From: Alphaproteobacteria bacterium | GTDB taxonomy: Bacteria > Pseudomonadota > Alphaproteobacteria > Sphingomonadales > Sphingomonadaceae | NCBI GenBank assembly: GCA_003241875.1 | Contig: QBLU01000019.1 | Span: 8,162 to 51,925, forward strand | DNA length: 43,764 nucleotides | Direction: 5' to 3' | Shown here: piece by piece, positions 19,464 through 24,740 of the stretch | Layout of the letters: every line of letters begins with the position of its first letter | Numbering within the stretch: the stretch's first letter is position 1 | Translations under genes and position numbers: made by a program | The notes under the pieces: generated by a model | Told to the model about the DNA's origin: nothing | Database searches by the model: none | Seen by the model: the letters and a program-made list of their open reading frames with translations, nothing else

Positions 19464-21464
19464 TCAGTGCACCGTGACGAAGTTTTCGACAGCGGGGCGT
19501 GCCGGCTCCGGACGCTGCCGCCCCGCATATTCGGGGACCAGGGCCGTCAGCGCATCGACCATATCGACGTCGTCGCCTTGCCGGGCGGTGTGGAACACCC
19601 GGCCCAGCGCGATTTCCAGATGGTCGATGGCGCAACCGCGGGCCCGCGCCAGGCTGGCCTTTGGAAACGGCGCCGGCGTCAGGTCCTCGTCGCGATGGGC
19701 CAGTTCCTCAAAGAGTTTCTCGCCCGGCCGCAGGCCGACGAACTCGATCGCGATGTCATGGTTGGGGCGCAAGCCGTGCAGCTGGATCATGCGTTCGGCG
19801 AGATCCATGATGCGGATCGGGTCGCCCATGTCGAGGACAAAGACCTGGCTTCGTGCCGGGCGGGTCTGCGCCGTGGCGGCGGTGGCGACGAGGATCAGCT
19901 CGCAGGCCTCCGGGATCGTCATGAAATACCGGGTCATGTCGCGATGCGTCACCGTCAGCGGACCGCCGGCGCTGATCTGCTGGCGGAACAGCGGCACCAC
20001 CGAGCCGGCGGAATCGAGGACATTGCCGAACCGCACGCAGGCAAAGCGCGTTGCCGACGGGTCGTCGCCGCGCGCCTCGTCGAGCGACTGGCAGATGATT
20101 TCCGCCCAGCGCTTCGTGCACCCCATGATGCTCGTCGGATTGACCGCCTTGTCGGTCGACACCAGCGTCATGATCTCGGCGCCATGGTCGGCGGCCAGCG
20201 TCGCGACATTGTGGGTGCCCATGATGTTGGTCAGGATCGCCTGGTCGAGATTGGTCTCCATCAACGGCACGTGCTTCAGGGCCGCCGCGTGAAGGACGAT
20301 CGCCGGCCGATAGCGCGCGAAGATGCCGGCCAATGCCGCCCGGTCGCGCACATCGCAAAGCGCGGCGGTGCGCGGCACGCGGGGGAAGCGCTGGCTCATC
20401 TGCATGTCGATCTGGTACAGGTTATGCTCGCAGGACTCCACCAGCACGATGCTGGCGGGCCGGTGCAGGGCGATCTGCCGGACCAGCTCGGACCCGATCG
20501 AGCCACCCGCCCCGGTGACCAGCACGACCTTTCCCGCCAGGCTCACCGGCACCCGCGGATCCTGGATCGAGACCTGGTCGCGGTGCAGTATGTCCTCGAT
20601 CGACACGGCCTGCATGGCCTCCCCGATCCGCGACGGCTCGACAAAGCTCAGCAGGCTGGGCAGGCGGCACAGCAGCAGGCCATGTTCGGCGGCGGCGACC
20701 AGCGCTTCGGCCAGCTCGTCCGGACGCTCGAGATCGCCGGCGATGACCAGGCGCTTGACGTCATGCTGCTTGGCCCGGAGCCGCAGCAGCGCCTCGCCGA
20801 TGGCGCTCAGCGGCCCCATGGCATCGACGCCGTGCAGGCGCTTGCCGGACAGCGAGCCGTCGTCATGGAGGAAGCCGACGACCCGATATTTGCTGCTTTC
20901 GGCGGCGATCTTGATGAACTGTTCGGTGCGCCCGCGGCTGCCATAGACGAGGACGGGTTCGACGTTGCTCGCCGGGACGCGGCGGCCGCGGTACCATTCG
21001 AGCCACAACCGCATCAGCAGCCGCGGCGCCGCCCAGGCACAGACGTACATGACGGTGCCCCCGATGAGGACGCGGCTGAAGGCCGCCATGCCGACGTGGA
21101 ACGACACCAGCGCGGCCGTGGTGACGGCCACCCCGAAGGCGGCGCCGAACAGGCCCATGACGTCATGCAGCGAGACGCGCCCCCAGACATGGCGGTGCGC
21201 ATTGGCAGCCCACAGCGCCAGGAAGCCCATCACCAGCGACAGTGAAATCGTTACGGCAAGGCCACTCGGGCTTTTCCAGTTGAGGACAACGTGAAGCAAC
21301 GCAACTTGCGCCATGACCAGAAGCAAAAGATCGCAGGCCATGGCAAATCTGCGGCGACCGAACTTGCCGCGAATGTACAGTACCGCATTAATACTGTACC
21401 GTGAGACTGCAGCAATCGTACTGCCTATCAAACGATAAATGGACTCTGGCAGTATATCCGACAT
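19464..21464 (-). CDS. Membrane-bound NDP-sugar 4,6-dehydratase (WbpM/PglF/CapD family)
   Basis: A 666-residue long-form SDR dehydratase, close to WbpM in length. Four N-terminal membrane helices (about residues 40-140) precede a first Rossmann-like domain (VLVYGSRGRTEQF, about 164-176). The catalytic domain (about 290-600) has the NAD site LVTGAGGSIGSELVRQI and the catalytic VSTDKAVNPTSIMGCTKRWAE region, here quoted only in part: the usual SDR Tyr is replaced by Met (MGCTK), as in WbpM and PglF. These enzymes convert UDP-GlcNAc to the 4-keto-6-deoxy sugar. The ATG at 21464 has GGGGGA 5-6 nt upstream and is preferred over an in-frame codon at 21488. It can supply the 4-keto substrate for the PglE/PglD/PglC-like genes at 8530-10966, although it sits about 8.5 kb away on the other strand, paired with a GT4. 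Confidence 0.9.
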   Translation of the reverse strand: MSDILPESIYRLIGSTIAAVSRYSINAVLYIRGKFGRRRFAMACDLLLLVMAQVALLHVVLNWKSPSGLAVTISLSLVMGFLALWAANAHRHVWGRVSLHDVMGLFGAAFGVAVTTAALVSFHVGMAAFSRVLIGGTVMYVCAWAAPRLLMRLWLEWYRGRRVPASNVEPVLVYGSRGRTEQFIKIAAESSKYRVVGFLHDDGSLSGKRLHGVDAMGPLSAIGEALLRLRAKQHDVKRLVIAGDLERPDELAEALVAAAEHGLLLCRLPSLLSFVEPSRIGEAMQAVSIEDILHRDQVSIQDPRVPVSLAGKVVLVTGAGGSIGSELVRQIALHRPASIVLVESCEHNLYQIDMQMSQRFPRVPRTAALCDVRDRAALAGIFARYRPAIVLHAAALKHVPLMETNLDQAILTNIMGTHNVATLAADHGAEIMTLVSTDKAVNPTSIMGCTKRWAEIICQSLDEARGDDPSATRFACVRFGNVLDSAGSVVPLFRQQISAGGPLTVTHRDMTRYFMTIPEACELILVATAATAQTRPARSQVFVLDMGDPIRIMDLAERMIQLHGLRPNHDIAIEFVGLRPGEKLFEELAHRDEDLTPAPFPKASLARARGCAIDHLEIALGRVFHTARQGDDVDMVDALTALVPEYAGRQRPEPARPAVENFVTVH

Positions 21465-21769
21465 GTATGTCCCCCACGCGGTCACCACAGACCAGAACGT
21501 TAGAGGTCACAAATATACAATGACTTAATGTCGTCGGTGGATTGTTACATCGGCAACGAAATAAATACTTGAAACTTCGGACATCCACATATTGACGGGA
21601 AATCCTGACACGAACCCGGCGGTCAATCGGCAAGAACTTCATTCATGTATTGGCGGCATCCCGGACGACAGCGCAGCGCGCGCATGAGGCAGCGACCCGG
21701 CGGCCGGCCCATGCCTGCTGGCCAGTCGCGCGGTCGGCCGGCGGTCGGCAGGCATGGGGAGCGCCCGGC
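21465..21769. other. AT-rich intergenic region between dehydratase and BLUF gene
   Basis: About 300 nt between divergent genes. Bases 21480-21610 are clearly AT-rich and probably contain the promoter of the minus-strand dehydratase operon; TATATT-like sequence occurs near 21515-21520, but no convincing -35 was found. From 21650 onward the plus frame of the BLUF gene is already open (TTG at 21650), but the encoded peptide is Arg/Ala-rich and unlike protein. GGGGAG at 21757-21762 is taken as the ribosome-binding site for the ATG at 21770. No repeat or RNA gene was recognised. Confidence 0.4.
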
Positions 21770-23602
21770 ATGCTAGGCGCCGCCGTGGACGATGCTCAGG
21801 CCGACCCGCTGACGGGATTGGCGACACGCGACCAGTTGATGGCCCGGCTCGACGCGCTGTTGCCGGGCGGGCCATCGCAGGCGGCCCGACCGGGGCTGAT
21901 CCTCGTCGACCTCGATCGCTTCAGGGCGATGAGCGACGGCCTGGGTCCGCTGGTCTGCGACAAGCTCCTGGCCCGCGTCGGCTCACGACTTCAGGCCATT
22001 GTGCCCATGGCGACGCTGCTGGCGCGCGTCAGCGGCGATGGCTTCGGTGTCCTGCTCGACGATGGCAGCGACGCCGTCGCAACCGCCGGCCGACTGCTCG
22101 ACTTCCTCGGTCGCCCCTATTCGGTCAAGGGGCATCCCATCACGATCAGCGCCAGGCTCGGCATCGCCGTTGCCGACGGTCATGGCGATGATGCGAACAG
22201 CATTTTCCACGCTGCCAACCTGGCGCTCCACCACGCCCAGCGCAGCGGCGGCAACCGGCTGCAACTGTTCAACATGTCGATGCGGCAGAGCGCCGAACGC
22301 CGGCAAGCGCTGGAAAACGACTTCCGCGCCGCCATCGCCCTGCAACGCGTCGAGCTGCTCCGCGCCCTCAACAGCGAACAGTTCAAGGTCTATTACCAGC
22401 CGCTGCTGTCGCTGGCCGACAATCGCCTTACCGGCTTCGAGGCCCTGCTGCGGTGGCACCATCCCGAGCGCGGCCTCGTCAGCCCCGACGAGTTCATCCC
22501 CCTGGCGGAAGAATTCGGCCTGATCAGCCTGATCGGGGAATGGGTGCTGCGCACCGCCTGCCGCGAGGCTGCGACATGGCCGGTGCCCAAAAGCGGCGTG
22601 CCGCTCAAGCTGGCCATCAACGTTTCGCCGCTGCAACTGCGCCAGGGCGAGACGCTGCTTGCGGCGATCCGCGTCGCGCTCGCGGAAACCGGGCTGTCGG
22701 TGGATCGCCTGGAGATCGAGTTGACCGAAATCGCGCTCGCCGACGACGTGGGCGACACGCTTCACGCCATCCGCGCGCTCGGGGTGAAGCTTGTGCTCGA
22801 CGACTTCGGGACCGGGTATTCCTCGCTCAGCAGGTTGCACAAATATCCGTTCAGCCGGCTGAAGATCGACCGCTCGTTCGTCGCCGGCAACACTCCGGCA
22901 ACCGACGCCGTGGCGCGACGCAGCAGCGAAGGCATGGTCAGGGCGATCGCCGCGCTCGGCGCCGGTCTCGGGCTCGACACGGTTATCGAAGGTGTCGAAA
23001 CGCCGCGCCAGCGCGAGATCGCCCGGCTGGCGGGCTGTACCGAGATGCAGGGCTTCCTGGTCAGCCCGCCGGTGCTCGGCGCGGCGTTGCCGGCCCTGAT
23101 CGCCCGGCTGGATTTCGTGCCCGACCGATCGGCGAATACGCCCGATGCGGACCTCTATACCCTTGCCTATTTCAGCCGCAGCGCGACGCCGCTCAGGCGC
23201 AACAGCCTGGCGGCGATCGACGATATCCTGCACATCTCGCGCACCAACAACGGCAAGCTCGGCATCACCGGCGCGCTGCTGTTCGGCGAGGGCTATTTCG
23301 CCCAGGTGCTCGAGGGGCCGCTGCCGGCTGTCGAGATCATCTTCGAAAAGATCGGGCTCGATACCCGGCACCGCGACATCACCATCCTGTACAACAGGCC
23401 GCTGCTGCGGCGCGACTTTTCGGGATGGTCGATGGCGTGCGTCGGTGCGATCGACATCCATCGCCTGCCTGACGACATCCACGGCGTGGTGGACGATGGC
23501 GCGTGTTGCGAGACGGCCCTCACCGGGCAGCAGATCCTCGAGTTCATGCAGGCCCTGATCCGGAAATACGACGGCGATGCCCAGCTTGCGCCGGCTGGCT
23601 GA
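21770..23602 (+). CDS. GGDEF(degenerate)-EAL-BLUF protein, predicted blue-light-regulated c-di-GMP phosphodiesterase
   Basis: A 610-residue three-domain protein. GGDEF domain (about 10-180): DPLTGLATRDQL is normal, but the signature is SGDGF at residues 88-92, so cyclase activity is unlikely. EAL domain (about 200-445): the Glu of EAL at 224, NVSPLQL, ELTEIAL, DDFGTGYSSL, LKIDRSFV, VIEGVET and MQGF, which are all the metal and c-di-GMP residues of active phosphodiesterases. BLUF domain (about 463-560): the flavin-site Tyr467, Asn494 (NNGKLGITGAL), Gln512 (YFAQVLEG) and Trp553 (FSGWSM) are all present. The BLUF domain is C-terminal, whereas BlrP1 and YcgF carry it at the N terminus. The ATG at 21770 has GGGGAG 7 nt upstream; a TTG at 21650 is the alternative. 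No transmembrane helix is apparent, so it is probably cytosolic. Confidence 0.88.
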   Translation: MLGAAVDDAQADPLTGLATRDQLMARLDALLPGGPSQAARPGLILVDLDRFRAMSDGLGPLVCDKLLARVGSRLQAIVPMATLLARVSGDGFGVLLDDGSDAVATAGRLLDFLGRPYSVKGHPITISARLGIAVADGHGDDANSIFHAANLALHHAQRSGGNRLQLFNMSMRQSAERRQALENDFRAAIALQRVELLRALNSEQFKVYYQPLLSLADNRLTGFEALLRWHHPERGLVSPDEFIPLAEEFGLISLIGEWVLRTACREAATWPVPKSGVPLKLAINVSPLQLRQGETLLAAIRVALAETGLSVDRLEIELTEIALADDVGDTLHAIRALGVKLVLDDFGTGYSSLSRLHKYPFSRLKIDRSFVAGNTPATDAVARRSSEGMVRAIAALGAGLGLDTVIEGVETPRQREIARLAGCTEMQGFLVSPPVLGAALPALIARLDFVPDRSANTPDADLYTLAYFSRSATPLRRNSLAAIDDILHISRTNNGKLGITGALLFGEGYFAQVLEGPLPAVEIIFEKIGLDTRHRDITILYNRPLLRRDFSGWSMACVGAIDIHRLPDDIHGVVDDGACCETALTGQQILEFMQALIRKYDGDAQLAPAG

Positions 23603-23675: not shown

Positions 23676-24740
23676 CTAGGCCGGCGGCGCTTCGCGATAG
23701 GTGCCGCGGGCGTGCCGCTTGGCGGCATAGAGCGCCATGTCGGCGCGGCGCAGCAGCAGCTCCGGCGAGCTGTCGTGGCCGATGACGTCGACGGCCCCGC
23801 CGGCGCTGGCGCTCGACCGCAGCAGCCGATCACTGAAGGTCACCGGCCGATGGATGACCTGCAACGACTGCTCGGCGATCGTTCTCAGCCGCAATGCACT
23901 CGGCCCCTTCAGCAGCAGTGCGAATTCATCGCCGCCGAGCCTCGCCGCCATCCCCGACGTGGCGACCACGCGATCAAGCCGGCAGGCCGTGGCGGTGAGC
24001 AGCGCGTCGCCGGCCTCGTGCCCGTAGCGATCGTTTGCCGGCTTCAGGTCATCGAGGTCGAACAGCGCCACGGCGATCTGCTGGCCGGTCCGCTCCCGCT
24101 CCGCAAAGGCCTGGCCGACTTCCTCCATGAACCGGCGCCGGTTCGGCAGGCCCGTCAGGCTGTCGTGGTTGGCGTTGTGCAATATCTGCGCTTCCAGCAG
24201 CTTGCGATCGGTGATGTCCTGCAGCGTGCCATAGGCGCGATGCGACCGGCCCTGCTCGTCCTTTTCGATGAGGTTGCGCGAATGCAGCCAGCGAATGCCG
24301 CCATCGGGAAGCATGATCCGATAATCGAGCGCCGTGTCGCAGCCGAGCGCCACGGCCTTCGCCACGGCATTCAGGAGTCTCTCGCGGTCATCCGGATGGA
24401 CCATTTCGATCCACATCTGGCGGTCGACACAGGCCGTGCTGTCGGGCTGGCCCAGCAGGCGCGCCCACATCGCCGACCCCGTCGACCGGCCGCTGCGCAT
24501 GTCGATCTCGAAAACGCCGATACGGCCGCCTTCCTGGGCAAGCTCGAGCAGGCGGCGATCATGCGCAACCGCCGCCGTCACGCGCAGCGCGACCTGGCGG
24601 TCTATTTCCTGCCGCACCAGGTCCCCCAGGTCGGCGGGCAAGTGCGCGATCAGGTCAGGATCGATCTGAACCCGGGTCGATGGCGCCGGCGGCATGATGC
24701 CACCGGCATCCCGCGCCCCAGCGCTTGCAGAAGATTCCAT
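23676..24740 (-). CDS. PAS-GGDEF diguanylate cyclase
   Basis: A 354-residue soluble protein. A short coiled N terminus leads to a PAS fold (about 65-180: GVFEIDMRSGRSTGSAMWARL, quoted here as two parts GVFEIDMRSGR and MWARLLG, then WIEMVHPDDRERL, DYRIMLPDGGIRWLHSRN and YGTLQDITDRKLLE), which is a PAS_3/PAC pattern. The GGDEF domain (about 190-345) has HDSLTGLPNRRRF, FDLDDLKPANDRYGHEAGD and an intact GGDEF at residues 269-273. The inhibitory I-site RxxD is absent (ATSG at that place), so product inhibition may be weak. It makes c-di-GMP from GTP and is convergent with the BLUF-EAL gene, 73 nt away, which suggests an opposed pair. The ATG at 24740 has a G run 5 nt upstream. Confidence 0.88.
   Translation of the reverse strand: MESSASAGARDAGGIMPPAPSTRVQIDPDLIAHLPADLGDLVRQEIDRQVALRVTAAVAHDRRLLELAQEGGRIGVFEIDMRSGRSTGSAMWARLLGQPDSTACVDRQMWIEMVHPDDRERLLNAVAKAVALGCDTALDYRIMLPDGGIRWLHSRNLIEKDEQGRSHRAYGTLQDITDRKLLEAQILHNANHDSLTGLPNRRRFMEEVGQAFAERERTGQQIAVALFDLDDLKPANDRYGHEAGDALLTATACRLDRVVATSGMAARLGGDEFALLLKGPSALRLRTIAEQSLQVIHRPVTFSDRLLRSSASAGGAVDVIGHDSSPELLLRRADMALYAAKRHARGTYREAPPA

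Follow-up and report, generated by a model that had tools for sequence, protein, structure and literature searches.

The gene at 21770-23602 of the window (the whole stretch of 43,764 nucleotides analysed here) quite probably encodes a blue-light-controlled c-di-GMP phosphodiesterase that, as its relatives suggest, was born by the in-frame fusion of a GGDEF-EAL gene with a short BLUF gene. Its closest relatives keep enzyme and sensor as adjacent, often overlapping genes, and hence the odd order of the domains looks like the product of gene fusion, rather than a new design. What is novel is the natural fusion and the gene-pair family, not the domain order.

Domain layout and key residues

The gene is one open reading frame on the forward strand, with an ATG start, a TGA end and a product of 610 amino acids; an in-frame TTG at 21650, upstream of this ATG, would give a protein of 650 amino acids. 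The Pfam scores for GGDEF, EAL and BLUF are all far over the curated cut-offs (for BLUF, 84.4 against 25 bits), and the features of the locus are as follows.

21756..21761, forward strand: possible ribosome-binding site GGGGAG, 8 nt 5' of the ATG, suggested by the sequence
21770..23602, forward strand: CDS for the degenerate GGDEF-EAL-BLUF protein, 610 aa (ORF and Pfam)
21794..22258, forward strand: GGDEF domain, residues 9-163 (Pfam PF00990, 87.1 bits)
22031..22045, forward strand: SGDGF replacing GGDEF, residues 88-92, with the RxxD inhibitory site absent just upstream (sequence)
22352..23071, forward strand: EAL domain, residues 195-434, with its catalytic motifs preserved (Pfam PF00563, 216.3 bits)
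23072..23152, forward strand: linker, residues 435-461, where in split relatives the EAL gene stops and the BLUF gene starts
23153..23437, forward strand: BLUF domain, residues 462-556 (Pfam PF04940, 84.4 bits)
23438..23599, forward strand: C-terminal tail beyond BLUF, helices at 568-575 and 586-606 at low confidence (AlphaFold2)

The first-pass annotation of this DNA had proposed the order degenerate GGDEF (SGDGF), EAL, BLUF, with a C-terminal sensor unlike that of BlrP1 and YcgF, and had called for an HMM domain search; this order is borne out by the Pfam matches and by S88-G-D-G-F92, the BLUF match falling inside residues 460-560. The four flavin-site residues that it had named (Tyr467, Asn494, Gln512 and Trp553) indeed align with the conserved Tyr, Asn, Gln and Trp of the AppA and BlrB chains, and Met555 is present too; we take these five to be BLUF flavin-site positions, with the Trp and Met semi-conserved. 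A residue check likewise found the EAL active-site motifs, all of which it had called present, to be kept (E224-A-L, N284, E317/E320, D344-D345, K365, E407/E410 and Q427, including DDFGTG), residues to which metal and substrate roles in c-di-GMP hydrolysis are here presumed to belong. Its prediction of a phosphodiesterase under light control, in which EAL is intact and GGDEF degenerate, is well supported at the level of sequence.

As the GGDEF signature reads S88-G-D-G-F92 and the Asn of NDxxG is replaced by Ser55, the protein fails the GG[DE]EF signature of diguanylate cyclases. The domain is most likely non-catalytic, such that c-di-GMP synthesis by it is not expected, and is probably a structural or allosteric part. 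One form that this could take, compatible with a fused light-controlled phosphodiesterase, is a GTP-binding allosteric domain that sets the activity of the EAL domain, with light as a second input; this is a tentative suggestion, already made by the first-pass annotation as a vestigial GTP sensor, against which the three changes at the GGDEF site (S88, G91 and S55) probably weaken nucleotide binding. Among 87 pairs and fusions, which include one identical row pair (L061 and L122) and five units in which GGDEF was undetected, SGDGF occurs in four (the window protein, L043, L040 and L057) and GGDEF is kept in 69. This rules out a degenerate GGDEF domain as a trait of the architecture.

The EAL motif patterns are complete in 77 of these 87 units, and ten miss at least one pattern, in some cases since the contig ends within the domain. 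Such completeness, which the window protein shares, argues against the BLUF tail working through partner binding or dimerisation apart from catalysis, as a light-controlled scaffold or anti-regulator resembling E. coli YcgF/BluF; according to the available part of PMC3509220, BluF differs in having a degenerate EAL domain, and acts by binding BluR. The genome that carries the window (3.8 Mb, 111 contigs) has four BLUF domains against only three EAL domains, implying that BLUF proteins without EAL exist there and lending the scaffold some plausibility, but on balance it is unlikely. The other three BLUFs of this genome lie in short frames (137, 158 and 178 aa), none of them on a contig that carries either of the other two EAL domains. 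Separately, at L085 and L116 the EAL frame before the BLUF gene fits few or no EAL motif patterns, as would a degenerate or broken enzyme.

The AlphaFold2 model has three folded domains (mean pLDDT 86.4, pTM 0.71), with low-confidence stretches at 455-458, in the linker, 571-583 and 603-610. The BLUF tail is modelled at low confidence, even though such a tail is the presumed signal carrier in other BLUF proteins. The closest solved GGDEF-EAL structures, by both sequence and fold, are PA0575 (RmcA, 5m3c) and MorA (4rnh), and EAL structures rank among the best fold matches of the model. These two are fragments solved without a BLUF domain, and the GGDEF motif is intact in the 5m3c alignment. The fold comparison spans model residues 10-451, with the BLUF part outside, and the absence of BlrP1 among the 50 matches listed is no evidence.

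The split gene pair in relatives

The same-genus genomes G008 and G015 each have, as nearest match, a GGDEF-EAL protein of 51-52% identity that ends at a TGA, where a separate BLUF gene can start at ATGA; with the split pair of G014, all three same-genus units found are split. In the closest BLUF loci (the best 80 of 243, from named species genomes), an EAL gene lies directly upstream on the same strand in 74, a proportion that describes this BLUF subfamily only, because the loci were found with patterns from paired and fused BLUFs. GGDEF was detected in 70 of those 74 EAL genes. The other six loci are five from Bradyrhizobium without an EAL gene and one fused copy (L080, from Sphingomonas sp. 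CROZ-RG-20F-R02-07), and one of the 74 split loci, L105, additionally holds a fused copy. Across 81 distinct pairs, the distance from the EAL stop to the BLUF domain ranges from -5 to 146 nt with a median of 17, and is at most 60 nt in 78; a four-nucleotide stop/start overlap, NTGA, is found in 32, in 27 of them as ATGA. EAL and BLUF are also annotated as neighbours in plasmid records, for example those of Aureimonas sp. AU20 and Skermanella mucosa.

The taxa with such pairs are mainly Alphaproteobacteria, with single records labelled as beta- or gammaproteobacterial, Acidobacteriota and Bacteroidota. The pair L049, near proteobacterial ones, comes from a Flavobacteriaceae (Candidatus Arcticimaribacter) bin and reflects either transfer or misbinning. 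Variants of the arrangement are seen in Sphingomonas glacialis (L043, 2991-5923), where three consecutive BLUF frames, the third a partial match, stand behind the GGDEF-EAL gene, and in a Caulobacterales MAG (L040, 3911-6456), where a BLUF frame lies either side of it, the upstream one having a long branch in the BLUF tree. L121 and L122, brought up by the profile search for fused proteins, are both split pairs, the former having an in-frame stop between the parts. Twenty places from the family and relatives searches, chosen rather than randomly sampled and mostly long frames, comprised nine pairs, one fused protein and ten BLUFs without EAL in their own unit. The window protein was the sole fused protein from a profile search of 385 genomes of the class, and likewise from 398 of the phylum, counts that are no frequency as at most four candidates were scored per genome at a very strict limit.

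Class-wide, the pairing is rare. In 385 evenly drawn genomes, 73 BLUFs over the cut-off were found outside the genome of the window, of which one partial match was left out; an EAL gene stands right before the BLUF in one of the remaining 72, elsewhere nearby in one and nowhere nearby in 70, with flanks of about 1.5 kb or less in 30 of the 72 and almost no upstream sequence at L180. This implies that the pair unit is scattered over many taxa, yet accounts for a minor fraction of BLUF genes. In the BLUF tree, 83 paired, four fused and 11 rows not behind EAL form one 98-row group (SH-aLRT 89%), the BLUF-only trees being built on about 100 columns and poorly resolved; taken with the class-wide scarcity, this grouping indicates that pairing marks a BLUF subfamily. 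The five Bradyrhizobium BLUFs (L044, L046, L048, L052 and L064), which lie near that of the window, have no EAL gene within flanks of about 6 kb, suggesting that members of the subfamily can also work neighbourless; at a guess, they could be PapB orthologues.

There is perhaps an even chance that the overlapping or adjacent GGDEF-EAL/short-BLUF pairs represent an unrecognised, widely scattered class of two-subunit light-regulated phosphodiesterase, of which the window gene and the three other fused copies found would be natural fusions. No description of overlapping GGDEF-EAL/BLUF pairs was found in the literature searched, which covered few subscription papers and so falls short of proving absence, and the available parts of PMC8506656 and PMC8805636 contain nothing on them.

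Probable origin by fusion

Split pairs surround the window protein on the EAL tree, with supports, moving outward, of 97/83, 97/90, 95/83, 94/68 and 100/100. The split-pair group around it contains Sphingomonas glacialis, Sandarakinorhabdus cyanobacteriorum, MAGs of Sphingomonadales, Rhodospirillales and Caulobacterales, and Rhodothalassium, as well as one Alteromonadaceae and one Flavobacteriaceae record. Before the trees were built, five loci were removed as duplicates, along with four EALs and three BLUFs that were partial, and seven long-branch loci were removed later; the careful EAL tree with AU tests used 36 of 109 rows. The four fused rows require at least three changes on the EAL tree (bootstrap 5-95% range 3-3), fusion and splitting being indistinguishable by the tree alone. 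A single fusion common to the four fused alphaproteobacterial copies, a group defined by the trait and not by the tree, is rejected (AU p 1.9e-6).

Two of the fused copies, L023 and L080, group together (100/100), which is consistent with one fusion event. At L105 (4403-8823), in a Rhodopila MAG, the split pair has behind it a fused GGDEF-EAL-BLUF copy, with 87% identity across 404 columns, that retains a methionine at the former BLUF start; this is a duplication with fusion within one locus. The distances among EAL and among BLUF sequences in 83 pairs and fusions are strongly correlated (Mantel r 0.83, the highest of 2000 permutations being 0.25), an agreement which, as linked genes share descent, shows joint inheritance, not contact.

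At the window junction, no ATG opens the BLUF frame nearby, the only candidate starts being GTG at 23072, TTG at 23087 and GTG at 23117, whereas ATGA is present in 27 of the 81 distinct pairs. This, together with the fused copies carried by other genomes, makes it very improbable that the fusion is an indel artefact in a genome that really has two overlapping genes, for all that the assembly is a 111-contig draft and the same-genus units found are split. An in-frame fusion, by comparison, accords with an ancestral unit in which the GGDEF-EAL enzyme gene would have been directly followed by the short BLUF gene.

Comparison with known systems and proposed function

The abstract of Ryu et al. (2017) on BldP reportedly speaks of C-terminal EAL-BLUF modules, and with that order BldP and EB1 would resemble the window protein in having EAL and then a C-terminal BLUF in one chain. 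Two proteins of about 1120 aa from the same phylum but another class, L226 and L227, are Peripla_BP-PAS-GGDEF-EAL-BLUF in one chain; they are the two fused EAL-BLUF proteins among 20 phylum-search places, chosen rather than sampled at random, of which four were BLUF-EAL and 14 neither. A new architecture, as which the reversed order had at first been presented, is hence rejected: BldP and EB1 are published, L226 and L227 share the order, and the gene pairs follow it too, so that the domain order itself is not new. L226 and L227 stand in an EAL lineage apart from the window protein, and a single clade uniting the six fused rows is rejected (AU p 1.5e-81). If they typify BldP, the sequences of which were outside the comparison, then the window protein differs from it in lacking N-terminal sensors and in belonging to a separate EAL lineage.

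Allochromatium vinosum and Magnetococcus marinus each have a BldP, a BLUF phosphodiesterase activated by blue light, and EB1, also a BLUF phosphodiesterase, is a fragment derived from BldP, according to the available part of PMC8846402; both are also treated in that of PMC8892541. The C-terminal helix of the BLUF domain is reported to be essential for light-induced dimerisation of EB1 (PMC10634658, in part). In Rhodopseudomonas palustris, a separate BLUF protein, PapB, controls the EAL protein PapA by a route proposed to run via C-terminal helices (PMC8846402, same part). The likeness is that BLUF controls an EAL phosphodiesterase, with sensor and enzyme separate as in the split relatives of the window, which constitute dedicated EAL-enzyme/BLUF-sensor gene pairs as judged by adjacency and joint inheritance, not by binding. 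By its description PapA is a stand-alone EAL protein, whereas the enzyme of the window has a GGDEF domain and is fused to its sensor. The Klebsiella pneumoniae protein BlrP1 (3gfx) likewise joins BLUF and an active EAL phosphodiesterase in one chain, but in the reverse order to the window, with BLUF N-terminal and GGDEF absent; its signal is held to reach the interface of the EAL dimer by way of the C-terminal helices of BLUF (PMC3989770, in part). The BLUF-EAL proteins L232, L233, L237 and L238 form their own clade apart from the window protein, BlrP1 itself being outside the trees.

The earlier suggestion that a C-terminal sensor would need a special signalling route is unsupported, as the order is that of the GGDEF-EAL/BLUF gene pairs, with a separate BLUF protein like PapB acting on PapA. 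The window protein is most likely a cis-fused enzyme-sensor pair of the PapA/PapB kind, PapA and PapB having been compared by description only. FAD would be bound by the BLUF domain, and blue light would alter the BLUF C-terminal helices; these may act on the surface of the EAL domain or dimer, as free PapB does on PapA, altering the EAL dimer and metal site. By analogy with BlrP1, a BLUF domain tethered behind EAL could reach the same EAL dimer surface. Hydrolysis of c-di-GMP would then shift, most likely upwards, with polysaccharide output or motility following; that light activates rather than inhibits is the most likely direction, borrowed from BldP, BlrP1 and PapB-PapA. The repeated occurrence of fusion in one order suggests that fused and split versions work alike.

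The gene is flanked by the edge of a polysaccharide biosynthesis cluster (932-21488 of the window), which encodes an O-antigen ligase/polymerase-type protein, a flippase, glycosyltransferases, a pyruvyl transferase, an acyltransferase and an NDP-sugar epimerase, and by a convergent GGDEF gene.

19464..21488, reverse strand: Polysacc_synt_2 NDP-sugar epimerase/dehydratase, edge of the polysaccharide gene cluster (Pfam)
23676..24740, reverse strand: PAS-GGDEF protein, convergent with the fused gene; possible opposing diguanylate cyclase, GGDEF motif present (Pfam and sequence)

This neighbourhood no more than hints at a link between light, c-di-GMP and polysaccharide. When 13 window proteins were compared with eight loci having flanks of at most 6 kb, none outside the pair turned out to be a conserved neighbour, the sole match being the PAS-GGDEF protein through its GGDEF domain; with no synteny beyond the pair within about 6 kb, there is no physiological hint from this source.

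The odd domain order is thereby recast as a matter of evolution, in which adjacent genes for sensor and enzyme have repeatedly been fused, each time in one and the same order. This predicts direct contact between short BLUF proteins and their neighbouring enzymes, and suggests functions for genes annotated just as 'BLUF domain-containing protein', as well as offering natural split and fused variants for the light control of c-di-GMP. If true, the fusions reveal the pairing, and comparison of split and fused forms would make the entry of the BLUF signal into an EAL enzyme testable.
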